NCBI GenBank assembly: GCA_025617375.2
Contig: JAMYGW020000001.1
Location: 2,108,001 to 2,172,000, forward strand
Direction of reading: 5' to 3'
Source of the DNA: Acarospora socialis
Taxonomy: Eukaryota; Ascomycota; Lecanoromycetes; Acarosporales; Acarosporaceae
Length of the DNA stretch: 64,000 nt
A program made the translations under genes and the position numbers. The notes under the pieces were generated by a model that saw only the letters and a program-made list of their open reading frames with translations, was not told the DNA's origin and ran no database searches. Positions 6,818 through 57,238 of the stretch are shown here, piece by piece. How positions within the stretch are numbered: position 1 is the stretch's first letter; every line of letters begins with the position of its first letter.

Positions 6818-7504
6818 ATGCCCACTGAAGCTCCCCACCGCCCACTGGCACCCTCCACCCTCCGCCCCTTCACCTTCCTGTCCCTGCCCCCGGAGATCCG
6901 CAACGCCATCTACCACCTCCTCCTGACGCACAACCACGCCATCCACGCGCCCTCCTGCCACCAGCTCTCCCCCACCCTCCCCATCCCCCTCGGCATCCAC
7001 CCGGCCCTCCTCTCGACCTGCGCCCAAATCCACACCGAAGCCGCCTCCATCCTCTACGGCGCCAACCGCTTCCAAGCGCACCCGTCCCTGCTGACGGGCA
7101 TGACGTTTGCGCTGGACGCGGCGCGGCCGATCGTCTCCGCCCGCGTCGTCGCGCTCATCAGGCGCTTCCATCTGCGCGTAAGGCTGGATTGCGATCCGAA
7201 TTATGGTGGGGAGGCGCTGGTGAGGGCGTTTAGTGGCATCGACGAGCTGCAGGTCGAGGTCTTTCAGGCGAGTTATGGGAATAGTGATTTTCGCGTGCTG
7301 GAGCTGTTTGCGGGGATTAGGGGCGTGAGGAAGGCGAGTGTGTTTGGGAGTGTGGCGAGGGAGTTTGCGAGCTGGTTGGAGGCGTGTATGGAGGGCGCCG
7401 TTGGCGCGACTCCGACGTGCTGGGGAAGAGAGGGGCTTGAGGGGTTGGGGTTACATGATAAGGTGCTTGGGGGGTACGATGTCTGGGTTCACGGCGGTAG
7501 ATGA
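6818..7504 (+). CDS. 2EXR/F-box-like domain protein
   Basis: A single exon of 228 residues. I chose the ATG at 6818 (cacaacATGCCC) over the in-frame one at 6713 because the conserved part begins just after it. The segment FTFLSLPPEIRNAIYHLLL is the signature of the fungal 2EXR/F-box-like family, followed by LLSTCAQIHTEAASILYGAN, also typical. Members are usually unannotated; some may act as substrate adaptors of SCF ubiquitin ligases, which is inference. Codon usage changes sharply within the gene: almost every codon ends in C up to about 7130, and after about 7200 codons end in G or T with AGG and TTG common. The strongest case of the compositional switch is here. Confidence 0.8.
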   Translation: MPTEAPHRPLAPSTLRPFTFLSLPPEIRNAIYHLLLTHNHAIHAPSCHQLSPTLPIPLGIHPALLSTCAQIHTEAASILYGANRFQAHPSLLTGMTFALDAARPIVSARVVALIRRFHLRVRLDCDPNYGGEALVRAFSGIDELQVEVFQASYGNSDFRVLELFAGIRGVRKASVFGSVAREFASWLEACMEGAVGATPTCWGREGLEGLGLHDKVLGGYDVWVHGGR

Positions 7505-7824
7505 GCCAATTCGGGAGAGCATTGCTTGACTTGTGGACGTTGTACAATGTTTCTTGGTGCCGACTGTGCTTGCTCCTTTGGTCGAAGCATTCCCTCCCTC
7601 CGGCAGCCACACTGCGGGCGACCGCAAGGGTTACAGTACCCCTGAGTCCGATATAGGTTCGTCCAAGGGTTGCCACATCAGTGCTTCATGCCATATATAC
7701 AAGATGATTGGTATAGTGCGCCTCTCATGCTCCGCCGCTATGCTTCGGCTTTGACTTAAACCAAACCGGTCTTTGCTGATAGTCGAAAAAATCGAAAACA
7801 AAACTCGCCAGTCCCGCTGAAGAG
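7505..7824. other. Convergent 3' spacer
   Basis: This 320-bp gap lies between two convergent genes (2EXR and zinc carrier). I see no gene; it presumably holds both polyadenylation sites. Confidence 0.5.
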
Positions 7825-9305: not shown

Positions 9306-9723
9306 GGCAAACAGCGGTGCTAGGAGCTAAAGCATAAGCTAATCGATCTTGTGAAATGATGAGACAGCTCAATATTGATGTTATTATGCAAGCTCATGAT
9401 TGTGTTGTTTGTTCTGATGCTCGATGTGGCTTAGTCTTGATCCTGGGACCGCTTTCATTTCGGCAGAACATTAAAGCGGGTACTCCCGAACCCCTTAACT
9501 TCCTCTCAGTACGTTAGTAACTTAGTAGCCATACGGTACTCCTCGTTCAGAATGGAAGCAAGTCCAAGCTACACATCATGACCCAAACCTTATACTTCCC
9601 GGAGCAGGGGGATTCAGGGAACGCGACTCACCCGAAGACACGTCGTTTGTCGCGGTAGTAGCGACAGAAGCCATCAGCGGCTGAGCGCACAGAGAATTCG
9701 GATGGGTAGCAAAGGAAGGTACT
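9306..9723. promoter_or_regulatory. Divergent promoter region, zinc carrier / two-TM protein
   Basis: A 418-bp spacer between two start codons on opposite strands. An open frame on the minus strand overlaps its right end, but nothing supports it as a gene. No specific element was recognised. Confidence 0.4.
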
Positions 9724-11740: not shown

Positions 11741-11742
11741 CT

Positions 11743-11750
11743 ATATAAGC
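11743..11750 (+). promoter_or_regulatory. TATA box of the ferritin-like gene
   Basis: TATATAAG lies 122 bp before the start codon at 11872. It would place transcription start near 11775 and give a 5' leader of about 95 nt. A strong TATA box fits an inducible secreted-protein gene; most other genes here lack one. Confidence 0.5.
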
Positions 11751-11871: not shown

Positions 11872-13063
11872 ATGCGTCTCCTCAAGACCCTCCCTCTCTT
11901 TCTAGCCGCTGGCCTCAGTGTTGCTTCGCCCGTTTTCAAGCGTGATAACACCACGCTCGCTGTCGACAGTAATACTGCCGTCAATTTTGTATTGAATTTA
12001 GTAAGTCTCCCGTCATCAATATCATTTAGCCTAACAACTAATAAGATAATAGGAATATCTTCAGAATGCCTTCTTCAAAGAAGGGCTTCACAACTTCACA
12101 CAAGCGGACTTTGTCGGAGCCGGACTGCCGGACACCTTTTATGACAATCTCAGATTAATCTATGAGGAAGACCAATCGCAAATTAAGTTTTTGGTCGACT
12201 ACCTCACCACCGCCGGTGTGACTCCGGTCCAGCCGTCAACCTATGCATTTGGCGTACCGGACGTGAAGTTTTTTTTGACCTTATTGAGTACACTTGAGGG
12301 CGTGGGCCTCTCGGCGTAAGTTTTGAGCCCTATCCCCATTTCACTCACCAAGACCACCCTTCTTATCTCCTCTGTAACAACCAGCTACCTCGGCGCCACC
12401 ACCTCCATCTCGGACAAAGCCGGCCTTCTAGCAGTTGAGTCAATCCTTGCAGTGCAAGCGCGCCACAGCAGCTACATCCGCAACGCCCTCGGGCAGGGTG
12501 CATTCCCCAACGCCTTCGAGACCCCCATCGACTTCGACCAAACCAACACCCTGATCTCCGTCTTCATCGTCGACACACCTGCCTCCAACCCAAAGTTCCC
12601 CTTCAAGATAGCCACCTACCTCGAGCTGGAGTGCTCCCAATACTACTACGAGTGCGTCTCCCCTCCCTCCATCCCTCCCCAGACAACACCCCGAGCTCCC
12701 CTTCCCCCCTTTACCACCACCCCACATAACTAACCTCAACCCCACAGAGCCGACCGCTCCTCCGTTACCTTCCAAGGCGCCTTCAGCACCGCCCAGAAGA
12801 CCAACAACCTCACCGCCTCCACCCAGGTTTACGCTGTCTTCCTCTCCGGCCTGCAGAAGACCTTCGTCCCCGCGCGTATCACCAACGGCAACGCAGACTA
12901 CAAGATCGACAAGATCCCTGCCGTCGATGCCGGCCAGGTCTATGCCGTCCTGAGCACGTCACCCACGAGCGTGGATTCGACGAATAGTATCACGGGCCCG
13001 GCGATTCTGCAGGTTTACCCGAAGGGCAAGGCGCCGGCTGGGCCTGTTCCGCCGTGTTTGTAG
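11872..13063 (+). CDS. Secreted ferritin-like domain protein (LsdA/Rds1-like)
   Basis: Four exons: 11872-12000, 12053-12315, 12385-12651 and 12748-13063, giving 324 residues. A signal peptide is clear (MRLLKTLPLFLAAGLSVASP, cleavage near residue 19, with a possible KR site at 23-24). The body is the four-helix ferritin-like fold of Ferritin_2 proteins: EYLQNAFFKEGLHNF, the IYEDQSQIKFLVDYL helix, TLEGVGLSAYLGA, and ESILAVQARHSSYIRN. Fungal members include the late sexual development protein LsdA and stress protein Rds1. The usual ExxH-type ligand of the second helix reads YEDQSQI, so one metal-binding His seems lost, while Glu and RH in the later helices remain. The C-terminal third is beta-rich. 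Metal binding and role are inferred, not shown. Confidence 0.82.
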
Positions 13064-15669: not shown

Positions 15670-18572
15670 ATGAGCAGTCGATTACTATCACCACGGCTGA
15701 CTGCCCCGGCGCGGCGACCTCCTTCCAGCATCTCTCGTCGACTAGTACATCGATCACACCCCGCCGCTGGGGGTTTGCTGCGATCAGATGGCGCCACACG
15801 GTTTGGAAGGCGGAAACCATGGCCACTCGGGTCGTACTCACTGCACAATGTCCCGGCTGTGCGGAGCATATCGTTTGCGCGAGTGCTACCGAACCTGGTG
15901 ATGAAGTTTGCGAGAATACCCGCGATGTTTGGCGGTGCCATGATTGCTGGGCTGGCATATCTCCAGTATCAAGCTACTCGTGAGTGATAGGCTACGTCTT
16001 GCAAGCAGGGCACGTTTGCTGATCCGGGATCATCAGAGGCCGGCAACTACGCAGTTGACGTCTTCAGAAGAGCGAGTGACGCGGCAACGGGAGTCGCGGG
16101 GAGCTTTTTTGGGACCGCGAAGGATGTGGCGGAGCAGACACGGAAAGGCTGGGAGAATACTAAAGATACTGTAGAGCTTCCAGCGTGGCTACAGAAGATA
16201 ATGCGGACGAATGAAGGTCCATCCTCAGAAGGCAGTGGTGGCTCATCGGATGCCGGGGGGTCTCCAAGGCAAAGCGGCTCCGGGGCTGCCGCTGCTGCCG
16301 TGTCGGGAGCTGCGTTCGGCTACCAGCAATCGCCGGAAGATGATGAGAGGTCCGGAGAGCAAGTCGCCAGAGACGATCAAATGATGCTGTTGACGAAAAA
16401 GATGATCGAGATCAGGAGTATTTTACAGACTGTAGGGCAGTCAGAGGCGCTTACTCTGCCATCCATAGTAGTGATTGGATCGCAGTCTTCGGGAAAGAGC
16501 TCGGTGTTGGAAGCGATAGTGGGGCACGAGTTTCTTCCGAAGGGGGCGAATATGGTTACTCGACGACCAATCGAGCTGACGCTAGTCAATACACCGAATG
16601 CGCAGGCTGAATACGGAGAGTTTCCGGCGTTAGGGCTTGGCAAGATCACGGACTTTACTCAAATCCAAAGAACACTCACAGACCTCAACCTCGCCGTACC
16701 TGAAGCCGACTGTATATCGGACGACCCTATCCAACTCAGTATATACTCTCCGAATATCCCCGATCTCTCACTTATAGACTTGCCGGGCTACATTCAGGTA
16801 TCAGGGCTGGATCAACCGACAGAACTGAAGCAGAAGATCTCAGACCTCTGCGACAGATACCTTCAGCCACCGAATGTTATACTGGCCATATCTGCTGCGG
16901 ATGTTGATCTGGCAAACTCTACTGCGTTGCGGGCAAGTCGTAGGGTCGATCCTCGAGGCGAGCGGACGATAGGGGTGATTACCAAGATGGATCTTGTTGA
17001 ACCTCAACGAGGTGCTAGCATTTTGACCGACAGGAAGTACCCCTTACGGCTGGGTTACGTTGGTGTGGTGTGCCGAGTACCCCAGACCTCCAGCCTCTTC
17101 TCACGAGGAAGCAGCAATATCATCAGCGCAGTCGCGAAGAATGAGAACGCCTTCTTCTCTGCACATCCTCATGAGTTTGGCCCTGAGTCACAGTTAGCCG
17201 TGGGTACCGCAACTCTACGAAAGAAGCTGATGCATGTACTGGAGCAAACCATGGCCTCAAGTTTACAGAGCACCAGTGAAGCGATACATCAAGAGTTGGA
17301 AGAAGCTACCTACGAGTTCAAAGTCCAGTACAACGACCGGCCGCTAAGTGCTATGTCCTATTTGGCAGAAAGTCTAGATGCGTTTAAACACTCCTTCAAA
17401 GAGTTTACCGAACAATTTGGTCGACCGCAAGTGCGAGAGCTACTGAAAGAGGAGCTTGACCAGCGTGTATTAGACCTGTTGGCACAGCGGTACTGGAACA
17501 AGCCCATCAACGACCTCACCCCGCCTCCACTTGAGCCTGATCCTCTCAGCGACCTACCACGTGCTGATCCAGAGTCCTTGTTCTGGCACCGAAAACTCGA
17601 CGCCTGTACCTCCTCACTTACCAAACTTGGTATTGGCCGTTTAGCAACCACCGTCGTGGCTAATGCCCTCCAATCACATATCGACCGCCTCATCGCGCAG
17701 TCGACATTTGCCACACATCCTTTCGCTCGCCAAGCGATTACTGATGCAGCTTCCGGTATCCTCAACGAGCGGTTCTACAGCACCAGTGACCAAGTCGAAA
17801 ACTGTATTAAACCGTACAAGTTCGAGATCGAGGTCGAAGACGCGGAATGGTCAAAGGGCCGCGAAAACGTGTCGGGCGTGCTGAAGAATGAGCTCAAGGC
17901 TTGCGAAGCCGCCGTGAAGAACGTGGAAGACGTGGTTGGAGGAAAACGGAAACTGAAGGATGTCATGGGATTTGTGGACCGAGTGCGGAAGGGAGAAGTG
18001 GTACTTGAAGGCGACGGCGCGGGCGGAGCAGGAGGCTTCAGTGCTGCACTTCTCCAGAAAGGTACCTCCTACTGATGTCTGCATTCACTCTCACCATATG
18101 AACTAACATATCACACCCAGGCCGAGAAGCCGTCTTCCTCCGAGACCGCGCCGACATCCTCCGCATGCGCCTCCTCGCCACTAAATCCAAACAATGCGCC
18201 CATCGCAAAAACAAATACCACTGCCCGGAAATCTTCCTCGACGTCGTCGCCGACAAGCTGACCGCCACCGCCGTCCTCTTCCTCAACGTCGAGCTCCTCT
18301 CCGAATTCTACTACAACTTCCCACGCGAGCTCGACGTCCGGCTCGGGCGTCATCTCTCTGAAGCCGACATCGACCGCTTCGCCCGCGAGGATCCGAAGAT
18401 CCGCAGGCATCTGGATCTGATTAGGAGGAAGGAGATGTTGGAGTTAGTGCTAGAGAAGATGGAGAGTTTGAGGGTGTTGGAGGGGAAGGAGAAGAGGGCG
18501 GCGGGGCAGGCGCAGCAGGCGAAGCAGGCGGCCAAGGAGAGGGGGAGGGCCAAGGGGTGGAGCTTGTTTTGA
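15670..18572 (+). CDS. MGM1: Mitochondrial inner-membrane dynamin-like GTPase Mgm1/OPA1
   Basis: Three exons, 15670-15979, 16037-18061 and 18121-18572, encode 928 residues, the usual Mgm1 length. The N-terminus is an Arg/Ser-rich mitochondrial presequence (MSSRLLSPRLTAPARRPPSS) followed by a membrane anchor (about 84-100, MFGGAMIAGLAYLQY). A Gly/Ser/Ala linker (160-200) precedes the GTPase: P-loop GSQSSGKS (251-258), TRRP switch region, DLPG (351-354) and TKMD (419-422). Middle and GED-like helical regions follow, ending in an Ala/Lys-rich tail. Mgm1 drives fusion of the inner membrane and shapes cristae; a rhomboid protease makes its short form in yeast. The last exon shows the C-then-G switch: C-rich to about 18360, G-rich from about 18410. 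Confidence 0.95.
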
Positions 18573-19122: not shown

Positions 19123-19874
19123 CTAATCCTCCGTAAACTTCCGATACTCCTCCCCCCCCATCAACGCGTCCACCTCCTTCCCGCCATCCTTAACCCTAAT
19201 TCTCGCAATCCACCCCTCCCCCTCCGGCCCTTTATTTATCGTTCCCGGCTTCTCTTCCAGCACCGAATTGGCCTCGATGATCGTCCCCGCCACCGGCATC
19301 ATGATGTCTGACGCCGACTTGACAGACTCGACGGCCCCGATCGAGTCGCCGGCCGCGACTTCCAGGTCGGGCGTTGGGAGTTCTACGTACACGACGTCGC
19401 CGAGGGATTTCGCGGCGTAGGTAGAGATGCCGATCGTCCCTGTTGGGAGGCGAAAAGAGGGGGAGGGTTAGTGAGAGAGGAGGACGGGGGGATTGGGGGT
19501 GGGGCACGATGGGGGGAGAAGGGTGGAAGGGGAAAGGAGAGGAGAAAAGTACCGGTCGTGCCGTCGTCGGAGAGCTCGATCCATTCGTGATCCTGGGTGT
19601 ATTTCTTCTCTCGCACTATCCACGTGAAGCACTACCGTTAGCACCCTGTACTGCAGACCAACAATCATTCAACCCATCACCCGATAGCGATGAACGTGCG
19701 TCTGAGGAACACCCTACCCGATACCGAGCTTCGAAACGTCCTCACGCTCTCTCTCCCCGCTACAGATGGCACATTGAACGACGGGCCGCGCGCGAGTCGG
19801 GGCAGGGAAGGTGGGGCGGGTGAGGAGAGGACGCTGGAGCGCAATGGGCGCGCGACGCGCGCGATGGCTGCCAT
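19123..19874 (-). CDS. GCV3: Glycine cleavage system H protein, mitochondrial
   Basis: Three exons, 19874-19718, 19615-19553 and 19439-19123, encode 178 residues. Residues 1-50 are an Arg/Ser-rich mitochondrial presequence. The mature protein begins near REKKYTQDHEWIEL, the conserved start of H proteins. The lipoylation site lies in GAVESVKSASD, where the Lys carries lipoate and shuttles the aminomethyl group between the P, T and L proteins. The C-terminus (KVxDGGKEVDALMGGEEY region) is complete. The two introns (102 and 113 nt) are longer than most here. The 3' end is strongly G-rich in the coding sense. It shares a 196-bp divergent spacer with MRP17, another mitochondrial gene. Confidence 0.93.
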
Positions 19875-20070: not shown

Positions 20071-20641
20071 ATGCTGTACGAATTGATTGCCGTCGTAAGT
20101 CTTCTCTTTTCCCGTCTACTCTTCTCTCCTCGTTTAAAATCCTTGACCTCTGACGTGTACCACCCACAGGTCCGGCCTGGCCAACTCAACGAAGTCAAAG
20201 AGTACGCCCTCCGCCGTCCCTCCTCCCATCCCTCCTCCCCTCTCCTCTCTTCCTTCCCCACCCCCCAGATAACCCCCAACTAACCTCCCACCCCCTCAAC
20301 ACAGAATCGCCCGCACAACCGGCTCCCTAATCCTCTCCTCGGGCGGTGTGATCCGGGGCATCACTAACTGGGGCCACTTCCTGCTTCCGAAACCCACCCG
20401 CAAACATCAGATGCGCCAACATTCCGGGCACTACTTCATCATGCGCTTCGACTCCTCCGGCGAGACGCAGCAGATGGTCCGCACGACGCTAGGCTTGGAT
20501 CCGCGGATGATTAAATTTGGGGTGGTGCGGTTGGGGAGGACGTTGGAGGAGATTAAGGGCGTGCAGGGGGGCGTGGAGTGGAGCAGTGATTTGCCGGAGG
20601 GCCCGGCGGGGGAGGTGCGGGCGGGGGGTGCGGCCAGGTGA
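20071..20641 (+). CDS. MRP17: Mitochondrial small-subunit ribosomal protein bS6m
   Basis: Three exons, 20071-20094 (24 nt), 20170-20201 (32 nt) and 20305-20641, encode 130 residues, as in yeast Mrp17 (131). The N-terminus MLYELIAVVRPG is the first strand of the S6 fold. It is followed by GSLILSSGGVIRGITNWG and a basic rRNA-binding stretch LLPKPTRKHQMRQHSGHY, then FIMRFDSS, strand 4 of the fold. Two very short first exons carry the start, so it is easily mis-annotated. The coding strand is C-rich up to about 20490 and G-rich from there into the 3' flank. Confidence 0.92.
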
Positions 20642-21659: not shown

Positions 21660-24240
21660 TTAAAGCGGTGGCAAAGTCTCCCTGCAAATTGGGCACTGAA
21701 GTCTGAACCGCATCCAGCCCTCCAAGCAAACGCTGTGAAATATATGTCTGCACGGCGTAACCATATACGATCTTCTGCCGAAAAGATTCCCTCCAAACCC
21801 GCTGGCACCTTCGCCGTCACTGGTCCCAGCAGGAACGATGGGTACGTCGATGTTCTCCCGACAAATGGCACAGTCATAAACTCTCTTTCCCTGCGTCTCG
21901 GATTCGACCGTCTTTTCAGCCGCAGAGGGACCTTCTTCTGTGGCCTGAGTGAAGCCGATGGGCATGGTGCCTCCTCCTTCGAGGTCGTCCTCGCGCAGAA
22001 TGGGATGATAGTCATAGGCCGGAGGAGCCCAGCCTTTGAGGACGAAGAATCGAGGCCCGAGGATCTCCTGACTGAAGAGTATCCACACCTGGATCCAGAC
22101 CCAGCCCATCAGAACGTATACGCCATTCCAGTCCGTCTCGAAGAATAAGACGTTCGACGGCACGGTGTAGAAGTAGATGAAAGGTGCGAGTCTTAGCAAG
22201 CTCTGGCCGAGGACGAATTCCCATCGAAGCGCCTTGCGGCAGTTGCGCATGACGTTACGATATATCTGCGGTGTCCAGAATGATAGGTATACGAAGGCCA
22301 GGAGATTGGCGTATATCGAGCGCAGAGTTGTTGGCCATGATGTGGCGTGGAGTGAGAGGAATATGATAGCCAACAGCAGAACGTAAAATCGAGCGAACAA
22401 GGCTCCAAATTCCCGCCGCGGGTTAACTTGCGTGTTCTGAGTAGCGTTCTGTGTGGTGGTAATGTTTTCGTCTTCGGTAACATCCATGTCTTGATCTGAA
22501 GGTACAATGATCGGGGTTGCTCCGGTATCAGATGGTCTGGGCGCCGTGACTGGTAGCGGCAGTGTATCAGCCCCGGCAGGTGTGATCACCACTGCCGGGA
22601 TGGGAGTAGGTTGCATTGGTTGTGCTGGCGGAGCATTTGCATTGACGTTCTGTGGCTCTCTCGTCCTTCGTTCCGGTGTCTGGACGATCCATATGTCCAT
22701 CAGGAACTTCATCCCAGAGAAGCTGACTCCGAAGAACGCAAAGAAAGCTGTCATGATGAAAGTAAGAAAGGCCGCGTCGACAAGCCAACTAACACCCAGA
22801 AATCCTATAAAGGCGAATCCGTCTCCCATGGACATCATCGCGATCGCGTAGAAGCTGACTCGGCACCTCGTTGACGGCGTCGAAGCCTCTCGAATTTGGC
22901 GCATAAGCAGAAACACCTGCATCACAAGCATAGCAGCGTAAGCCAGAACGTGTCGCTTCGCTAGACGAATGTAAGACTCTAATTTCGGACCTGCCAAGTG
23001 AAGTCCGTCTTTGGCAGTATGTTCTGGAGGTCCTTTCGACTCTAGTACAAAGCCACAATCAGGTGAGAATATCACCGCTGACATTGTCATTTGGGGGGGC
23101 TTTGGCAACGGCGCTCCTTGAGGGAATCGAAGCTCATCCTCGATTAGTCTTAGCGTAGAAGGGCTCTCGCTCAGAAAGTATCGGTTCGAGGCTGTAAAAG
23201 TTGTCGGATGTTGTTGCAGGTAAATAATGTATTCGCAATGCGGCGTTGGGAAGAATGACTCTGATGGGTTGTTGGGTGACGAGGACCAGGGAAATGTTGG
23301 TGAAATGTAAAGGTTAGATTCTTGCTTCCGTATCGCAACACTCAGTGTGTCGTTCAACAACTTCTGTGTAGAAGAGAAGGTATTTTCTGACAACGCAAAG
23401 TGCGGCAGTGCAAACAGGCCAGCAAATCTGTAGAACCGTCAATGATGCCCTCCAACTATCAGATAAGAGAGAGCCGACTAACTTCTCACTCGTAGTGGAC
23501 AACACGATCCCTCCAAAGTCCTGATAGTGCACTCCATGCATCGTAATCTCCCATCCATCTCCACTAGAAGTCTCATCTTTGATCGTCACTTGAGCACTGA
23601 TCTCTCGAACGGCGCCAGTCACAGAGTCTAACTCTTTGCTCCGCTTCTCGTCGAGCCTGAAGTGTATCTTACCACCACTTCCCGTAATATTCCTGTTGTA
23701 CTCCTGCGTGCTGAACAAGAGCTCTGGAACCACCGCGGTGAGGTTGATCCTCGGTGCCTTAATGTCGGCAGCAACTGGAGACCTGACCCATTCTCCTCGG
23801 ACAATGCCAGTCACATTCTGATAGATCGGTAACATATTTCCCCATATCTCTTCAGTCCAGGACCTATTCATAGCCATCGAGTCTTTCCCCTCCTCATCCA
23901 ACGTCTTCCGCACTCTGTCATCCTTATGCCCGTCAAGTCTCCAGAACCCTTCGTCCCGAAGCACCTTCCACAACTGCTCTCGTGCTCGCTCCTGAACCTT
24001 TGGTAGCGCATCCCAGACGTACCCATCCGCCGCTCTGAGCCCAGTCACGTTCAGCCATTTGCCCTCGGCCGTATCTAAATCCCCATATCGCGACTCGTTC
24101 AAGACGGCAAGCGCATGACGCTCCTCTGATATGAGGCGGCCAACTTCGCGCTGCTGTGAGAGCGTAGGTTGCTGAGACTCTGGCGACAAGAAAATAAAGT
24201 ATATGACGAACAGTAAAAGTACTGTACGAGGTGCGTCCAT
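21660..24240 (-). CDS. dscA: DSC ubiquitin ligase complex subunit A (Tul1/Dsc1-type RING E3)
   Basis: Two exons, 24240-23483 and 23427-21660 (55-nt intron), encode 841 residues. A signal-anchor (TVLLLFVIYFIFL) is followed by a long luminal domain with several N-glycosylation sites (NVT, NRS, NIT). Then come multiple membrane helices (LAYAAMLVMQVFLLM, FIGFLGVSWLVDAAFLTFIM, FARFYVLLLAIIFLSLHA, YANLLAFVYLSFW, GVYVLMGWVWIQVWILF) and a C-terminal RING-H2: CAICRENIDVPI, CRHIFHSVCLEGW, CPICRETLPPL. In yeasts and moulds this Golgi/endosome E3 ubiquitinates membrane proteins and, with other Dsc subunits and rhomboid RbdB, activates the sterol factor SREBP under low oxygen. The start is the first ATG; the frame is open three bases further but without a Met. 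Confidence 0.93.
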
Positions 24241-24839: not shown

Positions 24840-27779
24840 TCAAAGACCTGCCCTTCTCAAACCTCTCTGCCTAGTCGCCCTCCCCCTACCCCTTCCATTG
24901 CCCGAATCGCTACCACCACGATCGACGTCCTTGACAGTCCCGATGTCGGCTGCCATCCCTCTGGCCTTCGCCGTAGCGATATCCTTAACATCGCCCTTCC
25001 CCGCCATCTTCCTCACCATCCTCTCCCTCCACTCTTCTACCTCGGGATCATGATATCCCAGCTGTGTTCCTCTGGGCGTACTTTCCTCATCCTCTCGCTC
25101 TTCGTCGTGCAGAGACTTTATGCCTACGCTATCGAGTACAACTGAAGTCGTGCCTGTCGCCTCGATGGGAGTGCCGAGACCGTCCGTGTTGAGAGTGTCG
25201 ACGGAGCTGGCTCGGGAGATGCTGATACTGTTGCTGCGGGCGGAGATGTTGGAAGGGGCGCGGCCGAAGAGTGCGCGTCTGCGTCGTGCCGGGGGAGGTG
25301 CTGATGGTGCATGTTGAGGACGGGGGTGGTTTTGGAGGTTGGAGGTTGCGGAATTGTTGAGCTGCCTCGTGTGGGACAACAAGGCAGCTATGGATGTTGC
25401 GAGGCAGTCTTGGTATTTGCCGTCCGTCTCGGGTTCCGGTGGGTTGGATTGTAGGGATGGGGTAGGTTTGAGCTGCGATAAGGTCGATGATGGTTTGGTG
25501 GGAGAGTTGGGGGAGACTTCTTGGAGAGGAGCTACGTCGGTGGGATTGATCTTGTGAGGCTCTTCACTGCCAGATGCTGGTCCAGGGTCTGGGCCTCTCT
25601 CCTCAACCTTAACAGACGCCCGGCTTGTTGTCCGTGGCGGATCAGGCAGTCGGTCCCCTTGCTCCGAGCCACACCTGTTTTTAGACAAAGCCTTGGGGTC
25701 TTCAATGCGTTGTTGCTCTCGAGGCTGGGGCGGCACATGGCCACTGTGCACAGCTCGGGATTCATATCTCTCTGTGTCGCTACCTCTCTCAGTCTCGCTG
25801 ACAATTCGTCCGGCCAAACTTCGTAAGCGGCCAACTTCTGCTGAGGCTGTTGGAGCTTTGATCAGATACGATTGAAATGGCTTCCTGACCCCGTCTTTGA
25901 TACAGTCCCATAACCAGTCTGCAGATACGCTTGGAACACCCCACTCAAGTGCATGCCGTAGCTTTTCGGAGGGACTTGTCGAATTGCAAATTAGGATTGA
26001 TGACTTTCGCGTGAAGTACTCCTGATATGTAGCACCTGCCTTACGTCAGTAGGGATCCATGGCAGTTTCTGACAAGGGACTGACCCAGCTGGGCTACAAT
26101 CTTTCCCACCTGAAGCAGATCTATGCCACTGAATCCGGTAGAGCAGATATTCATTCCGCTGAACTCTGCAGAAACTTAGCTACTGCTATCAACAAGTTAG
26201 GAGCTGCGAGGGAGTTGACATACCCGGAATTGGGAACCGCGACAAAGGTGTGTTGGTCACGTTCTCTTGAGGTTGTATGAAGGACTTTCGGTGTAGACAT
26301 CTTTCCACCCACATGTCGGTCACTGTAATGGGCTGCATATATGGATCTGGAGTTGAGGGTAGGTCGCCCTGCGATGTCGTGTACGGCACAATCAGATATC
26401 CTTCTGGTGGTCCATCATGAGTTCCTCCCTGCGAGAGCTCGGGGAGAGAGGATGTTATCTCTGCATCATGCGATGAAAGATGTTTTCGTAGTATCGAAGT
26501 CTAACATGACAGGTCAGTTTCCGGCGATCCAGCATCGTCTTGGCTTCCACATGGGCCACAGACCTGCCTTTGATCGAACCCATGTATATAAAATCTCTTT
26601 CCTACAAACAGCCCACGTCGAGTGCCAGCAGTATCTGGTACTTTTGACACAGGTTGTACACTTCCAAGAGGTTTAGGGTTATCAGTTTGCTCCGAAGGTG
26701 CAAGCTGAGCAGTGCTGGGATCGCCGGTCAGGGTCTGGCTGGAGCGGTCCACTGATGTCTCTGCTTTCTGCCTGTGCTTATCCCACTCACTCTTCGTTTT
26801 CTCTTGCGGACCGAATCCGCCGCCAACAATATCCGTCCAGATGCCCTCGTTCTGACTACTTAGCTTGGCGCTTGCAACTCTCCTCAGTTTTCTTGATATG
26901 CCTGGTACCGATCCATCATCACGCAGTCTCTTTCCCAAAGAAGTAGTGGAGACTGTTCTCCTTATCCAAGCATTCTTGCCACGCTCCTCAGGTGGCGTAA
27001 GCGGATGATAGAGGCCTTCGTCCAGAATCATTCCACGCTCAAGACTATCTGACAACCACTCCGTTGACACTATCTTAATTCCCCAGGCGCCAGCATATGC
27101 ATATTTCTTGCCTTCCGCAGCTTTGGCAACAAGATGGGTGACGTCCTTTGTAAGATCTCCGCAGTATTCCGCACCATTCCCGTTAATCCAGTCCATGAGT
27201 CGTTGCCGGTAGTCCACTGGAAACGTCAGTAAACCCGGGAGAGTCCTGCAGCGACTCGTTCGTTTGCAACTCACAATCGTCGAACCCAGTCACGCACACC
27301 CTCAAACCAACAAACACCGGTAGCTTATATTGCACCTGCAGCGCCTCCACATCCGTCTCTCCACCTTCAATCCAGGATTTACGGACGGCCTCAATCCACT
27401 CGGGACACAGACACTTGAGATCGGGCCGCAATTTGGCGACATATTTATACTTTGGCGTGTCGGGATCTCCAACTAGCAGATGAGTTACATCGGAAGTGAG
27501 ATCGAGCTTGTGTATGGCGCCCATCTGCGACGCAATGGCTGCCAGCTCGGACTGGCAAAACCAGAGATCATCGTCAGCGTAGGTCTTGGCACTTAAGACC
27601 CTGGGGTTCCTTCAACAGGTTATTGAGATGCCAGACGTACACGCTTCTCTGGGGGGATGGAGGTGCAGCACATAACAACACCCTGCAGAGGCATCTGCGA
27701 CCTGTCTATACAATTGTTAGCAGTTCGGAATGAAACAGCCCGTGTTCAACGTACTGCTTTCGGGCTCGTCTGCCATCAT
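24840..27779 (-). CDS. DPB11: Four-BRCT replication/checkpoint protein, Dpb11/Rad4/TopBP1-like
   Basis: Seven exons: 27779-27755, 27705-27641, 27551-27275, 27216-26564, 26500-26224, 26165-26085 and 26035-24840, giving 857 residues in frame. Four BRCT repeats are visible, each with its signature Trp: CPEWIEAV (repeat 1, about 18-115), STEWLSDSL (repeat 2, about 120-215), TDMWVERCL (repeat 3, about 325-425) and SADWLWDCI (repeat 4, about 433-520). The paired layout 1+2 and 3+4 is that of Dpb11/Cut5, which binds phosphorylated Sld3 to start replication and activates the Mec1/ATR checkpoint kinase. The C-terminal 330 residues are disordered and end in a GRGRGR stretch. The intron between repeat 3 halves uses a weak donor (GTCTGT). 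An upstream MM pair starts the protein; either Met could be used. Confidence 0.9.
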
Positions 27780-40073: not shown

Positions 40074-40897
40074 TCAACTGCCAGAGGCCTCCAAGCACTC
40101 CTCAACCTTCCCACCCAAACCCCGCGGTTCCCTCACCATACAATAAAGCCTACAAACGCTCCCCCCATCCACGCACTCCATCTCCTTCACCTTCCGAAAC
40201 CCCAACCGCTCATAAATCTCCGTATTCGGCACCTCCCTCGAGCTCTCCAAATAGCACCTCCTCCCCTCCCTATCCGCCCTCTCCAACACCTCCCCAAACA
40301 ACCTCCTCCCCACCCCCTTCCCCTGCCACTCTGGCCGCACCGTCACGATATTACAGAAATAATACCCCGCCTCGTCCGTCCACAGCTCCTTCTGCGCGAC
40401 CGCCTGGTTCGCTTTCCAGATCCAGTACCGCCGCACGTTGAGTCCGCCGCGGCCGTAGTAGGCGTTCATGCCTAGCTGCTGCAGCCAGAGCAGCCAGGAT
40501 TGGAACAAGGCGTCCCAGGTCTGAGGGGCGGAGGGAGGGGTGGGGGGTAGCCACATGGCGACACCGAGGACTTTGGAGGGCGTGGAGGAGGTCGGGTCTT
40601 TGGCGACGTGGAAGAGCGCGTTGCGGATCCCCCAGCGGCAGCGGATGCCGAGGGAGACGCGGTTGCGCGTTAGGGAGAGCTGTGAGGGAGGTGGGGTCAG
40701 TGGAGTTGAGATTGGTAGGTAGAGGCTGAGTGGGGACGCCAAGGCGGGGGGAGCGGCGGGGGGCAGGAGTTGTTGCGCACCTTTGATCGATCATCGTATA
40801 TCCAGCGATTGTAGGGGTCGTCGGCAAAGGCTTGTTGAATTGTGTCGATTGCGCCGGGGATGTCTTCCTCCGTCAGTGGGGTAATGACAATTGGCAT
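40074..40897 (-). CDS. GNAT-family N-acetyltransferase
   Basis: Two exons, 40897-40781 and 40679-40074 (101-nt intron), encode 240 residues. The start MPIVITPLTEEDIPGAIDTI is the first strand and helix of the fold. Motif A, the acetyl-CoA binding loop, is clear: VTVRPEWQGKGVGRRLFGEV with the QGKGVG signature. Motif B follows as CYLESS and NTEIYERLGFRKV. The pattern CYLESS-NxxxYxxxGF is common in mould GNATs of unknown substrate. The gene is C-rich in its 5' half and G-rich in its 3' half in the coding sense. Confidence 0.85.
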
Positions 40898-41341: not shown

Positions 41342-44300
41342 TCATAACAATTCCCCAGCCTCATACCCTCCGGCTATGCCTGGCGCCGGTCCCTCAAGGT
41401 CAACACCCTCTACGCTCCTACCGACCTCCGCACTTTCCCTTACTAGATTGCCAAAGTACTTCCTAGCCACCTCACTCTCAATCTTGACTTTATCGGTGTC
41501 GCGCTGTTTCTGCGCGAGATGTTCGACAGAGCGCTGCAGGCCGACGCGCAGGTTGTCGGCAGGGATACGCAGGACTTTACGAACCTCGGCAGCGATACGG
41601 GTGGAGTTGGTGTGCGGGTAGTCAAGAGCGTGCAGGCGGTGGGAGAGTTTGTTGCTGAGGCGCTTGGGGAGGGAGTGAGGGATGGAGGTCAAGGCGTAGG
41701 ATGTCGCGAGGATTACTGGAAGGTGTTAGTATATCGTGGCATGGAAGGTCCGGTATCAATAGGATAGGGAAGAAATAGCGAAGAAAGGACGTAAGGCAAC
41801 GTACCTGCAGCGACAATTCCCGGAAGAATTAACCTTCGCATGTTCTTTCCCCCCATTACTCTGGCTGCTCCCATGGCACCATCGATCCAACCGACACCGC
41901 CGATCATACGTCCGCCGAGAACACCGACCACCGTCATGGCCATGCCGGTACCAGCAACCTTTTCCTGTCTCTCCCATAGACTGCCCACGTCGAAGAAATC
42001 CCACACTTCAACCTCCGCATCGACTTGTCTAGCCAGTATGTCCCGCTTCCGGCGGAACATGGCTTCACTTCTGAAGCTCAAGTCGGTATATTCGTCGCCC
42101 AAGTGCGAGATTCCCAGACTCTTGATGGTAGAGACACCCTGAACGGTCTTACTTCGTGCGTCTTCCTCGCAAGCAGTAACTGTAGCGGAGATTTGCTCCA
42201 ACATCGCAGCCTTCACATCTTCCGCAAACTGAAACGCATTCAACAAGCCCGGATACGGCACCCCCAGCTCAGCGTCAGCCACTTGGGCGATAGCTGTGGA
42301 GAGGGTATCACGCGTGTGGTCATAGGTCTCTGAGCATGTGCTTTCAATTGTCTGCTCAATGTCTTCGCTCACTTCTGCACGAGCTTTCTTGGATTTCTCG
42401 AGGACAGGTTCGAGGTCTGCAAGTTCCTTTGTGACTCTGTCGAGCTCCGATTGTGCTACATCTCGGTTCACGGTGGCCAAGACATTCAAGTCTCCGAGAA
42501 CATTGAGAAGATACGTTTTGGCCGGAGCAAGCTTGGAACGCGCGCGTTTCTCTAAGACGAAACGACGTAGTGCTCCTTCAAGATTTTCAAAGTCACGCAA
42601 CTTTTCCTTCTCTTTGCCCTTGCCTTTCCCGCTGGGCGACCCGATTTCACCATGCTTGCCGATGGGTGATTCCTCGTCGTCTGAAGGTGGAGAATCGCCA
42701 GGACCATCGTCCGGAGGATCCGAACTTCCACTGCCGCCTCCTCCTCCGCCTGATGTAATTGCCACAGGGATAGCGTTACTGGAGACGAAATGCACTAGCT
42801 CTACTGACTCTTTGAAGGTCCGGGGACTGAGAGTGGCGACCTGTTCGAGTATCATCCGCTGACATCGTTCCTTATCTCGGATGTTGTCAAAGCCATTGAC
42901 CACAATGAAAATGTATGCTTTCTCGTGGGCCGCGTTCCAGATGAACTCTTTTGCGGAGAGAGTAAAATGGTTCGCTGCAGACACAACGAAGACCACTACA
43001 TCAATCTCTTCCTGCCTTGCAAAGACTGCTGTTGTCTTCAGTGAGTCCGAGTTGAGACCCGGAGCATCGATGATGGATATATCGACAACACCATTATTCA
43101 GCAACGACTCATCAATCGCCCGAATGTCCTTTACGTAGACCTTGCATTGTGTGTATTGGTCGTTGTCTGTGACAATCTTCTCCAGCTCTTGCAACCTATA
43201 CACATCGTAAGTGCTCTCGTCGTTCCGGTTGTACTGTGCATCCTTGTGTACAGCATGTACTTCCTCAACGCCCCCATTTTCTCTCGCGTCGAGAACCTCG
43301 CAGAAAATGCTCGTACACGGTTGTTGGTCCTCCGGTAGCACTTTTCGTCGTAAAAGTGCGTTGCAGAAAGTCGACTTCCCAGCGTTCAAGTCTCCCGTGA
43401 CCAGAACTTTACTTGAAGTATCCTCTATCCTGTCTCGTAACGATAGCAGGTGCCGTATGCTTTGACTGATCTTGCCATCCAAAAGAGAAGCGATCGAGTG
43501 TTTCTCCAATGAATGGACTAATTCGGTCTGCGAGAGCGCTCCCAGCTTAAGGTCTAGTTTCAGTATCGAAAACTCTTGCGCTATCTGCGGTGTTATCAAC
43601 CTCGGTTCTGGTGCCGCCCTCCGTTCTGCCACAACACTAGATTCAGCTGACGAGTCCTCCCCAAGAGATGTAGCCGCTCGTCGGTGGCCTGGTCGTAGCG
43701 GGCCCTCCGTCTGTGGCTGGATATTGCCGGCTGTTGACTGTGCATGATTGAGGCCCGGCCTAGGATCTTGTCTTGATGGTGATGGACCTTGCACTCGCTG
43801 CACAGAAGGGTAGTGCGCAGGCCAAGTGGAGTTCATCTGCTGGAGGTCTTTGAGAGTCTCGACAGTTCGGTTGATCGCGCGGCCGAGAGCGACGCGATTT
43901 TGATTGCTACCAACCATCAGCCTCGGGCAAACATCATAGAGATTTCAGCGTACTAGTAAAGTTGGTGTATGTGGCTTGCCAGAGTGCGCCTCTCATTCTC
44001 CGCTGTCGACAACTACTTGTCAGCCATTGTTTCCTACTACCTCCAACCATCACAATGAGACTCACAAGTAGCATTGCTCTCCCCTGACTTCCCCGGCGTA
44101 TGAGTTGGTGTAGGTCTATCCGTTGTCATCCCGGGATGCCATCCGCGCATACCACCGTCATTGCTTTGACTATCGCCGGCAATGCTTCCCCCATAACCAG
44201 AGTCATTATCCAGCGATGCCATCAGCGCTGCCGCACTAGCTGATGTCGAGCCGGATCCGACTGTCATATAGTGTGGCCGTCCAGATGTTCGATTTATTGG

Positions 44301-46280: not shown

Positions 46281-46832
46281 CTAATCTATCCACACCTGTA
46301 CTGAACTAGGTCCACAACCTACGCAGCCCGCCGCCACAGCAGGCACCATCCCCTCCGTCTCCTTGACCGTCCGTATTCGTACCAACTTCTCCCACCTCTC
46401 GCATGCCGCGAAAGCCAGCCCTCCTATCCCCCACAAACCCCTCTGGCGTACCTCAGCCCCTTCCCTTTCCCCAACAGAGTTCCACCCAAGCAGCTTTGTG
46501 ATCTTCAGCACAGCGTAGACTCTACTATTTCCTCAACAGACACGAACAGAGAAAACGTGATGCCGCCATCGTGCGAGCCTTCTTCGCTTATCCTCTCTTT
46601 GGGCTCTCGGTGCGGAGGCTGGGACTGGGAAAGTGGACTGCTGTCCGAGAACAGTGCGGAAGGTGGGGGGTGGTACGGATGCGTGCTGGATCCACTTGAG
46701 ATAGGAAGGTTTGGGGGGGAAGGGAATAGATGTAGATTGGAAGGATCGAGAGAGTGGGATGCAAGATATAGGTGAGCTCAGCGGAGAGGGAACTGGGAGT
46801 GAGCAGAGTTGGGAACGGGGCCTGAAGGACAT
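46281..46832 (-). CDS. Candidate small gene, unknown protein (two exons)
   Basis: Exons 46832-46548 and 46502-46281, joined across a 45-nt intron (GTTCGT donor, AAG acceptor), give 168 residues in frame. The N-terminal half is Ser/Pro/Arg-rich, perhaps a mitochondrial presequence (MSFRPRSQLCSLPVPSPLSS). A basic patch (REDKRRRLARWRHHVF) precedes a C-terminal part with ITKLLGWNSVG, GLWGIGGLAFAACERW and the end SSVQVWID. No family was recognised. The support is a coherent splice and the same C-rich-then-G-rich order in the coding sense that marks other genes of this window. It is convergent with VPS2. It may be noise, since the intron is very short. Confidence 0.35.
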
Positions 46833-53392: not shown

Positions 53393-54870
53393 ATGAGAAA
53401 GACGCTGCTTCTATGTTTTATCCATGGATTCAAAGTCAGTCCCAACGGGCAACCAACCCGCAATGCGAACAAGATTGGGCTAAAACAGAACCATCTAGGG
53501 CGGCGATGACACCTTCGGCGGATTCCCCGAACACCTGCGCGCGCTGGTCAGCCATGCGCTACCCAAACTCACCGTCGCGGCCATCACGTACCCGAAGTTC
53601 GAGACGCGGGGCGATCTGAAGGAATGCGTGGGCAAATTCCGGGAATGGTACGTTTTCCACACCGCCCCATCCCCGACGGGGGCCGCAGCCCGCCCGATCA
53701 CCAACGTCAACTAACAACCATCCTGTACTTGACCGCAGGCTCCAAAACCAAGTCATCGACCTCGAAGTCGCCGCCGGCACCCCGTCCCCCACCATCGACC
53801 CGTCGGTCCGCACCATCCTGATCGGCCACTCGATGGGCGGCATCGTGGCAGCAGACACCATCCTCGCCCTCGCGTCCGAGCAGCCCATCTCCACCCCCGC
53901 GGAGACGCACGCCTTCATGTTCCCGTACGTCCAGGGCCTGCTGGCGTTCGACACGCCCTACCTCGGCATCGCGCCCAGCGTCGTCGCCCACGGCGCCGAG
54001 GGCCACTACAAGACCGTCTCGACGGCGCTCAGCACGCTCGGTGAGGTCGCGGGCGTGTTTGGTTGGGGCGGAGGGGATAGGCAGAAGAGCGAGATCGACG
54101 CTCAGCGGAACGCGCGACAGCCTGCCTCGCAGCAGGCGTCCCCACCCGCGGTAGCGGCGCTTCCTGTGGGCCCCCAAGCCGCCAAGGACTCCAGGGCCGC
54201 CCCCGCTGCAGCTGCTGCGAACATCGGCAAAGACGCCGCCGACGCGGCCGCCATGCCGGCGTGGCAGCGATGGGGCAAATACGCCATGTTCGCCGGCGCG
54301 GCGGGCGCGATGGCAGCGGGCGGTGCAGCCGCGTACGTGAAGCGGGAGACGCTATCCGCCGGCTGGAGCTGGGTCGGGTCGCACCTCGCGTTCGTCGGAT
54401 GCCTGGTGCGAGGCGAAGAACTCCGACAACGCGTCGTCGCCATTGCGAAACTCGAAGCGGAGAGCGGGCTGGGCTTCGCGAACCTGTACACGAACCTGGG
54501 CCTGGCGGCGAAGAGGGAGACGGGGACCGTCACGGTCAGTTCGGGATTACTGGGGAGCGAGAGGACGTTTTGCTCGTTGCCGAATAGCGAGGTGAGGAGG
54601 TATTTTGTGAAGTGCGTGAATGATAGGGCGGAGGATGAGACGGTGGCGCATATGAGTATGTTTTTGCCGAGGGAGAATCCGGGGTATTATGGGATGGTGG
54701 AGAGGGCGAAGGAATTGGTGGTGGGGTGGGCGAGTGGGGATTGGTATGAGGCGAGTGACGGGGATGGTGCTGGAGGAGGGGCGTTGGGCGTGGAGGAGCT
54801 TAGTGGGGTCGAGATCGATGGGCTTAGAGATGAGAAGGTGCTGGATGAGGATACGGTTATGGTAGGGTAG
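53393..54870 (+). CDS. Alpha/beta-hydrolase, DUF676-like serine esterase
   Basis: Three exons, 53393-53434 (42 nt), 53499-53647 and 53739-54870, encode 440 residues. The first exon gives MRKTLLLCFIHGFK and joins to GGDDTFGGFPEHL. The HGFKGGDDTF phrase is the oxyanion region typical of DUF676 lipase-like proteins. The nucleophile elbow is LIGHSMGGIVAAD, with Ser as catalytic residue. FDTPYLGIAP is also conserved. A low-complexity Ala/Pro-rich insert lies in the middle. It is followed by a short hydrophobic Ala/Gly stretch (YAMFAGAAGAMAAGGAAAY) that may be a membrane anchor. Substrate is unknown. The coding sequence is C-rich to about 54330 and G/T-ending from about 54540 on. Confidence 0.83.
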
Positions 54871-56281
54871 GGTTCTGGTTGGGTTCCTGAAACCGGGGCG
54901 TTGGAGGCCGCTGGAGTTTAAGACGAATATACAACCATGTCAGCCACAGGTTCGGAGTCTCAACGGTGGGCGTCTGCCCCATGATGAACTCCTGCACTTG
55001 AAATTGAATGAATTGGCGGAGGTGCAAGGAAGCCCACATATTCCGCTAGCAACCCTACTGGATACTCAGTCCTTCACCATCAACCACCCACGCCCGCTCC
55101 TCAGCTCTCTCAATCTATCCTTCCAACAATCCAATCCATCCATCTTACAACTCACACGCACCCTCACAACCCCATCCCTAACCCTCTCCCCGCCACCCTC
55201 TCTCTCCAAACCGCCATCCCCCTTCCCTGTCCCTTATCATCCAAACATCCGCACCCCACCAAGCCACCCAGTCCCCCGTCCTCCACCAAAGTACCTCCTT
55301 AACCAAATTACGCCCCACCTCTGCTCTTTCACCGTCCTTCCCTTTCTTGCACGCACGCCCGCTCCATCGGTCCATCCTTCAGACTATACTCCGTGGATGG
55401 ATCCCAATCCCAGGATCGCCCTCGTGGAAGCAAAGCGTGGCAGGCAGAGCAGATCCACGAAAGCAGTATCGACGAACGTATCAGACCACAACTGAAGTCA
55501 CGCTTGGCGATGGATTGTAAGTTTCTGGTGCCGCAGGTGCAGTGCTCTTCTTCCAGGCGTTGAGGACCGCTTTTTACAGCAGGCCTTTATCATTCACTTC
55601 CGTTAAGGTGGGATAGGTGAAGTCGGTGTTAGAGAGATAGGGGGTGGGTGGACGAAGGTGTTTGGCCTCTAACGATATGGGAACGGCTCTTTCTGGCTCT
55701 ATGTCGCCATGCCTGGGTTCTTGTAGTTTTGGTGCGGTTAGTCGAAGGATGGAGTGATAGTGAATTCTGACGTAGTCTCAGCAAATACAGTACGAAGCTT
55801 CGTTGTTTGTCTTTGCTGGTCCTTTTCTTCTGCGGTTGACGGACGTAGTGGGTGCGCGTTTGGAGTTCTAGTATCCGGTACAGAACGATACTGGTGAACG
55901 ATGTGATTCGGCTGTTCAGAACGTAGGTTGTGATCATTAGTTCTGGGTACACGGGGGTACGCGCCAGGATGCGAAGCGTAACGTTGTGTCATTGCCCACG
56001 GTGGTGAATTTCTGTCGTAAGTCTCCCTTCCCTCATTCCCAGCGGTCTGGGGGCGGTGCTCTCTAGTGATCGAGGTTGCTAGTCCTCGGCGAAAGCGTGG
56101 TCGTCGAAGACAGAATTAGTGAGATCCGAGAGGCATGAGGTCAATGCTAGACTCAGCGCTGCTCCGAGATCGTTATCGTAGCGAAACGATACGTCGCAGA
56201 ATCACCGAGTAAACGTGAGAGTCAGCTGAACAGGGTTCGGACCGTGAAGGCACCCCCAGGGTTCGTTCACGGACGCCCATC
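54871..56281. other. Intergenic with C-rich stretch
   Basis: About 1.4 kb. A pyrimidine-rich segment (about 55100-55350) gives a plus-strand open frame of 165 residues (54998-55495) that is mostly Pro, Ser and Leu and has no domain; I do not call it. The remainder shows nothing. Confidence 0.4.
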
Positions 56282-57238
56282 TCACCCCAGTATCTCCTGC
56301 TCTTGTCCCACTCCACCACCCCCTTGACTCGCCCTAACCGCCGCTCTCCTCCTCATCCCATGCCTATCCAAGCACCTCCTCATCTCCCTCGCCCACTCCC
56401 ACGGCCTCTCCAACCCACCCGGCAACGAATTAAAATACTCCCACCCCATCACGCCGCCAAACCCCTCGTACCTCCCCACCAACTCCCCCACGACCCCATC
56501 GAAAACCTCCATCCCCACAAACCCGTCCCCATTCCCCGGATTCGTCACCACCCCCACAACCACCTTCCCCACCGGCCACCCCCTCGCCACAACCATCTCA
56601 TACCCCACCGCACTCTCCACGCTCCCCCAGCCACAGTAAAACTGCACATTATACCACGCTATACTCCCGCCCCGCAGCACCTCCAACGCCTCGTAGTCGA
56701 AGCCTGACAAATGCCGCCCGCCACACAGCGCCGACGCGACCGGCGCCAGGGTGACGAGGAACGCGGGGCCGAAATCCGCCTTCAGCCGATCGACGAGGCG
56801 GACGACGCCGGACAGCGACATGTGCTCCTCGACGTCGAGGTCCAGGCCGTCGAAGCCGTGCCGGCGCACCATGTCGCGCAGCGGGGCATAGTGCGCTTCG
56901 AAGGCGGCGGCGTCGTCCTGGTCCAGACGCGTGAAGCTGCCTTGGGCGGCGCCGCCGAGCATGCCGAGGACTTTGATGCCCGAGTCGCGGAGCACGAGCA
57001 GCTCGTCCCAGAGGGTCGTGTTGTGTGCGGCGGTCGGGGGCGAGTCGTTGAGGGTGATGGTGCCGGGCGGGTCGTTGAGGTGGATGGCGGCGAGGATGAG
57101 GTGCGTGATGCCGGTGCGTTCGGTCAGGAGGGGGAGGATGGAGACGTAGGTGCCGTCCGGGAGGTAGTGGGTTTGGTGGTAGCAGATTACGCGCGGGGTG
57201 GAGGGCAGGGGAGGGGTGACTGGGAGGAGAGGAGGCAT
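56282..57238 (-). CDS. Glycoside hydrolase family 18 protein (chitinase/endoglycosidase-like)
   Basis: A single exon of 318 residues. The family signature FDGLDLDVEEHM (DxxDxDxE) contains the catalytic Glu near residue 140. The TIM-barrel strands are visible: RVICYHQTHY (strand 1), GITHLILAAIHL (2), GIKVLGMLGG (3), DGLDLDVE (4), FLVTLAPVA (5), IAWYNVQFYCGWG (6), VVVGVVTNPGNGD (7), GGVMGWEYF (8). The Asn-Val-Gln-Phe-Tyr after strand 6 is typical of the smaller, single-domain branch. There is no obvious signal peptide, so a cytosolic or vacuolar role is possible. The coding sense is C-rich in the first half and G-rich in the second, with the flip near the middle. Confidence 0.88.
   Translation of the reverse strand: MPPLLPVTPPLPSTPRVICYHQTHYLPDGTYVSILPLLTERTGITHLILAAIHLNDPPGTITLNDSPPTAAHNTTLWDELLVLRDSGIKVLGMLGGAAQGSFTRLDQDDAAAFEAHYAPLRDMVRRHGFDGLDLDVEEHMSLSGVVRLVDRLKADFGPAFLVTLAPVASALCGGRHLSGFDYEALEVLRGGSIAWYNVQFYCGWGSVESAVGYEMVVARGWPVGKVVVGVVTNPGNGDGFVGMEVFDGVVGELVGRYEGFGGVMGWEYFNSLPGGLERPWEWAREMRRCLDRHGMRRRAAVRASQGGGGVGQEQEILG

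Follow-up and report, generated by a model that had tools for sequence, protein, structure and literature searches.

In most of the fungi analysed by McLean & Tirosh (2011, BMC Genomics 12:638, PMC3315797), C-biased genes have G-biased 3' ends. The bias was described at four-fold sites and into the untranslated regions (UTRs), was weakly linked to expression level, and was given two hypotheses (PMC3315797). A preliminary description of a window of 64 000 nucleotides from the genome of Acarospora socialis, made from the sequence alone, named ten genes whose codons change from C-ending to G-ending along the coding sense and presented this as unexplained, although the pattern has been in print since 2011 (PMC3315797). 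The change, here termed a C-to-G switch, was analysed in that window and in further samples of the same genome, which is a further case of the published pattern.

As in the reversal of McLean & Tirosh, C precedes G on the coding strand, four-fold sites are affected together with codon positions 1 and 2 and hence amino-acid choice, and the bias extends into the flanks, reaching the 3' UTR. The share of genes is partial in both studies (33 % in C. albicans, 33 of 84 or 39 % here, by different tests). Their description differs from the present one in that here 17 long genes (at least 600 codons) have C bias in their 3' part alone, a restriction that P450 genes do not share; the AT skew of strong genes reverses with the GC skew, whereas theirs is flat and mostly positive; and the contrast between the two arms rises with the GC content of third codon positions (GC3), whereas their GC skew, a different measure, falls with GC content. 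Neither a length-split nor a mirror-composition test was seen in the parts of McLean & Tirosh (PMC3315797) drawn on here. The additions made here, for which unpublished status is not claimed, are the anchoring seen by splitting genes by length, the mirror-like arms, the joint reversal of AT skew in strong genes, the sharing of the bias by introns and the link with GC3.

Fujimori et al. (2005, PMC555766) reported a C-rich strand bias near the transcription starts of plants and fungi, and a similar promoter skew is reported in Leptosphaeria maculans (PMC3411245). C also exceeds G near gene starts here, but the bias described by Fujimori and colleagues concerns starts and is in this respect unlike the 3' switch.

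At the ends of human genes, GC skew is linked to R-loops and termination. The coding strand is G-rich near the 3' end there as it is here; in A. socialis, however, the G arm is found within the coding region and fades soon past the stop codon, and G runs are not enriched. Jumps in strand composition also occur at replication origins, and work of that kind is cited by McLean & Tirosh. Such jumps have the same polarity of C then G on one strand, but the arms here are shorter than 1 kb, and 33 strong switches in 264 kb are denser than would be expected of origins.

Sequences, gene models and definitions

The window comprises bases 2108001-2172000 of contig JAMYGW020000001.1 (C1) of assembly GCA_025617375.2, a genome of 31.1 Mb in 38 contigs. 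Its gene content, its introns and the presence of families such as Chs7 are those of a fungus. Beyond the hand-picked cases, the sample included 200 kb of a second contig (C2), 50 kb of a third (C3; two thirds AT-rich, with six predicted genes) and 14 P450 loci on ten contigs. Our own gene finder predicted 138 genes in the 314 kb of window, C2 and C3, from which 84 with a start, a stop and at least 200 codons were analysed (18 in the window, 61 on C2 and five on C3) and 54 were dropped. At least the MGM1, GCV3 and arrestin genes were mis-split by the finder, and stops created by splicing go unchecked. The 84 genes consist of 25 strong genes, with a median length of 352 codons, and 59 others. 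There were 107 P450 matches in the whole genome at E<=0.001, which are exon pieces and so represent fewer genes; the 14 were hand-picked from these before the sequence was seen, for a high score, no in-frame stop and a match that extends close to the profile end, leaving out other equally eligible matches.

A strict C-to-G switch was defined as a C excess followed by a G excess of at least 36 per 200 bases, counted over all bases and in both arms, and a strict G-to-C switch as the reverse order, and switch scans covered the window and C2 (264 kb). In the synonymous permutation, codons were shuffled within each amino acid, gene by gene.

Skew reversal at the 3' ends of genes

The switch is anchored to the 3' ends of genes. 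When the 84 genes were aligned at the stop codon, as the preliminary description had proposed, the reversal was seen on average: four-fold GC skew was -0.28 at 140-160 codons before the stop, passed zero about 80 codons before it and was +0.22 in the last 20 codons. The combined skew of codon positions 1 and 2 shifted too, from about -0.05 to +0.24. Aligned at the start, the same genes showed a C bias fading to zero by about 240 codons. In the flanks, skew was -0.11 over the 100 bp that precede the ATG and +0.12 over the first 50 bp downstream of the gene. Synonymous permutation gave p<0.05 in 33 of the 84 genes and p<0.01 in 25, with three in the opposite direction (p>0.95).

The shift at codon positions 1 and 2 would fit a cause in amino-acid composition alone, but the switch or its C arm also appears at four-fold and two-fold sites, in introns and under permutation. 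Composition alone is refuted by the synonymous permutation and is an extremely improbable explanation. The exclusion of amino-acid selection as sole cause in the preliminary description therefore holds, on the evidence of four-fold sites, the within-amino-acid permutation and, in strong genes, introns and the roughly 80 bp downstream of the stop.

P450 genes, whose frame and strand are secure because they are fixed by homology, gave the same picture. Nine of the 14 passed the permutation at p<0.05; these nine come from eight of the ten contigs, showing that the switch is not limited to one chromosome region. The pooled four-fold skew of the family was -0.45 at 160-180 codons ahead of the stop and had become +0.60 over the final 20. 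A Pfam scan of ten of the 18 strong C2 genes listed backed the reading frame in five of ten exons (aconitase, methionyl-tRNA synthetase, carboxypeptidase, aminotransferase and MYG1) and found no Pfam match in the other five. Matches end 2 (MYG1), 73 (methionyl-tRNA synthetase) and 76 (aconitase) residues before the C-terminus.

Polarity and position of switches along the DNA

The strict scan found 33 C-to-G and 14 G-to-C switches. None of either kind arose in any of 20 first-order simulated sequences with the same dinucleotide make-up, and chance was rejected as their cause. Local GC was higher at C-to-G than at G-to-C switches. According to the preliminary description, genes on both strands invariably run from C to G when read in the coding sense. 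The polarity itself was seen, but it holds no strand information, because a C-to-G switch is its own reverse complement; genes on both strands then show C before G automatically wherever the plus strand does, and this is no argument for a link to the sense of transcription. The link to genes rests on position, as strong switches are mostly near stop codons. Twenty-eight of the 33 C-to-G switches were inside gene spans, with a median distance of 246 bp to the stop; 18 of the 28 were closer to the stop than to the start, and three were within the first 40 % of the span. Predicted genes above 1.4 kb contain six strong switches, each at a distance of 49-300 bp to the stop. When the threshold was relaxed to 26 per 200, C-to-G switches numbered 7.7 per 10 kb over the final 500 bp of genes and 4.1 per 10 kb in the gaps between convergent genes, with 2.8 over the initial 500 bp of genes and 0.6-1.2 in other sequence; pieces shorter than 300 nt were not treated as genes, so that the arrestin last exon was counted as gap.

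The statement that the reverse order never occurs was too strong, as six of the 14 G-to-C switches lie within predicted gene spans. Two such in-gene switches are in the window, near 18042 and 41826, and the former falls in MGM1 between C-to-G switches at 17785 (weaker) and 18344. Seven of the eight intergenic G-to-C switches are in gaps between convergent genes, where two G-rich gene ends would face each other, and this placing accounts for part of the impression that the order is never reversed.

Shape of the two arms

In the 17 long genes (at least 600 codons), four-fold skew stayed within -0.14 to +0.17 over the first 475 codons. Between 100 and 350 codons ahead of the stop it was -0.01 to -0.36, and in the last 75 codons it rose to +0.22 to +0.38. 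Their GC3, about 0.55 at first, climbed to 0.62-0.67 within the last 200 codons apart from the final 25. A simple 5'-to-3' gradient is a poor fit to these long genes, though P450 genes keep a C bias far upstream.

The fitted switch in the 25 strong genes lay at a median of 321 bp from the stop (quartiles 246 and 363). The four-fold composition of their C arms (A.132, C.573, G.189, T.106) was close to that of the reverse complement of their G arms (A.157, C.560, G.182, T.102; chi-square p=0.34, a test in which sites within genes are not independent and switch points were fitted). With fixed arms and a bootstrap over genes, the difference intervals for C, G and T included zero and that for A excluded it; the same held in the 14 P450 genes, also with fixed arms, where C and G again mirrored each other and the interval for A excluded zero. 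AT skew reversed in the strong genes, from +0.12 to -0.26 (Fisher p=1e-5), and did not reverse in P450 genes (-0.07, -0.18) or in all 84 genes (-0.02, -0.06).

Next to the switch, GC at third positions was about 0.75-0.85; the left arm took about 250 codons to fade (seven long strong genes). At two-fold sites, C/(C+T) was 0.84 and G/(A+G) 0.53 in the C arm, and 0.37 and 0.81, respectively, in the G arm. Pyrimidines make up 60-70 % (about 65 %) of the C arm and about 37 % of the G arm, which indicates that transversions are involved as well as transitions.

Non-coding sequence, GC content and predictors

Introns of strong genes at 300-900 bp before the stop contained 130 G and 317 C (13 introns), and those farther upstream than 900 bp contained 141 G and 198 C (14 introns). 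Skew in the first 40 bp past the stop was +0.31 in the 25 strong genes and +0.05 in the other 59; the G bias ended after about 80 bp in strong genes and about 120 bp in P450 genes. The four-fold GC content of strong genes was 0.77 at 60-220 codons before the stop versus 0.55 beyond 400 codons, their intron GC was 0.535 at 300-900 bp versus 0.49 beyond 900 bp, and GC past the stop was 0.53 in the first 40 bp and 0.45-0.52 thereafter.

Genes with a higher GC3 over their final 200 codons had a larger contrast between arms (Spearman 0.46, p=9e-6). Gene length did not predict switch strength in the 84-gene set (Spearman -0.14), and the correlation with predicted exon count was r=-0.23. Nearness of the neighbouring gene, a comparison suggested in the preliminary description, did not predict strength either (log downstream distance, r=0.00). 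The switch was present in 17 of 42 genes with convergent neighbours versus 6 of 30 in tandem (p=0.08), the tandem counts including mis-split genes, and a correlation of strength within convergent pairs fell short of significance (Spearman 0.39, p=0.12, 17 pairs). GGG runs in G arms were not enriched over a codon-shuffled control (206 vs 199.9 +/- 4.9), and C runs were below expectation from the same kind of control (145 vs 167.5 +/- 5.9). Selection for G runs or quadruplexes was rejected, since G runs were not above the control.

Interpretation and candidate causes

The pattern is probably the reversal of GC skew already described within fungal genes, and part of the genes of this genome show it strongly. 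A strand-asymmetric bias is present near gene 3' ends, in silent sites and in some non-coding sequence. We infer that its cause is a mutational or repair bias and not codon or protein selection alone. Substitutions would long have favoured C on the coding strand through an affected gene, and G on that strand over a stretch that begins about 250-360 bp ahead of the stop and ends about 80-120 bp past it, by a substitution or repair bias that would act at the DNA level on opposite strands either side of a point near the 3' end.

A number of observations weigh against this interpretation. Only about 30-40 % of genes show the switch clearly, 51 of the 84 having p>=0.05, and GC3 is the only good predictor found for it. 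Ten of the 28 in-gene C-to-G switches are closer to the start than to the stop. The 25 strong genes are C-biased from their start (-0.45), and P450 genes are still C-biased (-0.23) at distances above 300 codons from the stop. Introns of strong genes that lie less than 300 bp from the stop are few (three, with 65 G and 28 C), and those of the other genes at this distance are C-biased (154 G and 246 C in 14 introns). The rise in GC is far larger at third positions than in introns or past the stop, so codon selection may contribute. Strong C-to-G switches without a predicted gene, including three on C2 (near 600778, 620287 and 630224) that are situated between convergent genes and rank with the strongest sampled, are unexplained by a purely gene-bound account unless unannotated transcripts are hidden there; they may reflect such transcripts or a process working outside genes.

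Strand-biased mutation or repair in late transcription may well be the cause and is tentatively favoured; this candidate fits the end of the bias in the 3' UTR and is in line with the published proposal. The near mirror-image arms and the rise in GC fit a two-sided process around a point, while opposing transcripts fit in part both these features and the 3' UTR end. In the two-sided process, one strand-biased mechanism, such as biased mismatch repair of recombination intermediates, would spread both ways from a point about 300 bp before the stop, and on each side C would be gained by the strand whose end is at the break. The similarity of the arms in the 25 strong genes, the mirroring of C and G in the 14 P450 genes, the high third-position GC beside the switch with its fading left arm, and the opposite C/T and G/A preferences at two-fold sites all agree with this. 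A Spo11/TopVIA-like N-terminal domain (TP6A_N, E=1e-12) is encoded at 948720-948830 of contig C9, making meiotic break formation plausible in A. socialis, and intragenic recombination hotspots are known in Zymoseptoria (PMC5844332). Against it, the right arm ends 80-120 bp past the stop, where GC is barely raised; A is not mirrored by T in strong or P450 genes by the bootstrap; the pyrimidine excess of the C arm demands transversions beyond T-to-C changes; and in Zymoseptoria, GC-biased gene conversion is reported as absent or very weak despite the hotspots (PMC5844332). That the switch marks a single strand-asymmetric process, with DNA repeatedly opened, broken or copied about 300 bp before many fungal stops and repair favouring C on one strand to the left and on the other to the right, is rather unlikely. 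If true, the published skew would be a relic of biased repair at a hotspot near the 3' end, rather than of distinct phases of transcription.

If sense transcripts and antisense transcripts from the 3' end each pushed their own strand towards C, the switch would be the boundary between them. A C bias near the starts of transcripts or of translation exists in some fungi (PMC555766, PMC3315797), and an antisense start near the stop codon would look G-rich on the sense strand; the mirror-like arms, the C bias of strong genes from their start and the somewhat higher frequency of switches with convergent neighbours point the same way. The neighbour effect is not significant, however, and mis-split genes are among the tandem counts, while in genes of at least 600 codons the C arm adjoins the switch and not the sense start. 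We regard this explanation as rather unlikely. Selection acting on transcripts is decidedly less probable. It could take the form of codon selection or of C avoidance at 3' ends to speed RNA polymerase II, as in the CTP hypothesis of McLean & Tirosh (PMC3315797). The GC rise is greatest at third positions, as selection of this kind would allow, but long genes are C-enriched late, whereas the CTP hypothesis asks for C at the start, and there is no sign of selection for G clusters in the GGG counts. The C arm is also common to introns, though introns are transcribed too. A cause other than these four is very unlikely.

A little-explained published property of fungal genes is strong in this genome, and its shape (3' anchoring in long genes, near-mirror arms, a C arm shared by introns and the link with GC3) narrows the causes. 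The composition also distorts codon-usage statistics, can mislead gene finders at 3' ends and yields long spurious open frames on the opposite strand.

Switches in the window

All ten genes named in the preliminary description shift from C-ending to G-ending codons (Fisher p 8e-5 to 4e-22; Table 1). These p-values are optimistic because the cut points were chosen by eye, and they show only that the letters had been read correctly. The strict two-arm scan of all bases recovered eight of the ten; the hydrolase and GH18 genes were missing from its list for the window, because each has just one strongly skewed arm. The positions given for the flips agreed with the scans to within about 100 bp in nine genes and departed from them in the hydrolase gene, where the nearest scanned step was at 54588 and not at 54400. 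In the MGM1 main exon, the weaker C-to-G switch near 17785 was seen in the sliding window, and the whole-exon third-position test gave p=0.67.

Table 1. Features of the window with a switch (positions are those of the window; third-position counts are for the 5' part, then the 3' part)
Feature	Position	Strand	Switch	Third-position C and G	Synonymous permutation	Remarks
2EXR/DUF7730 gene	6818-7504	+	C-to-G near 7160	C76/G25, C23/G59	p=0.002	DUF7730 1.5e-07; 2EXR 4.6e-04, below cut-off
Ferritin-like gene	11872-13063	+	near 12966	C41/G8, C16/G22 (last exon)	p=0.002	label from preliminary description; four predicted exons
MGM1 last exon	18102-18572	+	near 18344-18404	C66/G11, C5/G45		Pfam LIS_MGM1 5.1e-09
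GCV3 last exon	19123-19467	-	near 19294-19337	C33/G23, C2/G30		label from preliminary description; gene mis-split by finder
MRP17 last exon	20330-20641	+	near 20442-20458	C28/G17, C6/G35		label from preliminary description; 5' limit approximate
DPB11-like 3' exon	24840-26045	-	near 25103-25133	C112/G60, C13/G38	p=0.002	BRCT 9.4e-09
Arrestin-like last exon	32950-33708	+	near 33490	C120/G24, C8/G35		label from preliminary description; frame and limits from open frame; no Pfam match
GNAT acetyltransferase	40074-40897	-	near 40480	C69/G27, C14/G79	p=0.002	Acetyltransf_7 1.2e-09
FZO1-like predicted 3' part	41342-41712	-	C-to-G 41485			right limit approximate; model from own finder alone
C-to-G switch outside predicted genes	46370-46770		46570
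Hydrolase-like gene	53393-54870	+	third-position switch near 54400	C125/G87, C26/G86	p=0.002	weak PGAP1 match below cut-off
Hydrolase-GH18 convergent gap	54870-56281		G-to-C at 54973-55032, then C-to-G near 55411-55492
GH18 gene	56282-57238	-	third-position switch near 56690	C115/G46, C14/G93	p=0.002	Glyco_hydro_18 1.2e-08

Three neighbours had been called free of the switch, and the third-position test bore this out for the main exons of the FZO1-like gene (p 0.76) and the NLR-like gene (0.50) and for the exon at 21660-23438 (1.0), taken as the dscA of the preliminary description. For FZO1, flatness holds for the main exon and not for the 3' part of the predicted gene, in which a C-to-G switch was located.

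Other observations

A long open frame at 56708-57247 on the plus strand, which the C-to-G composition favours, lies antisense to the GH18 gene; it was preferred by our first scorer of open reading frames and not by the later gene finder. Bases 505001-537500 of C3 form an AT-rich block of about 32 kb with a GC content of 0.25-0.34. A CpA-type signature of repeat-induced point mutation was not seen in this block (TA/AT below 1), which could be a centromere or old decayed repeats.

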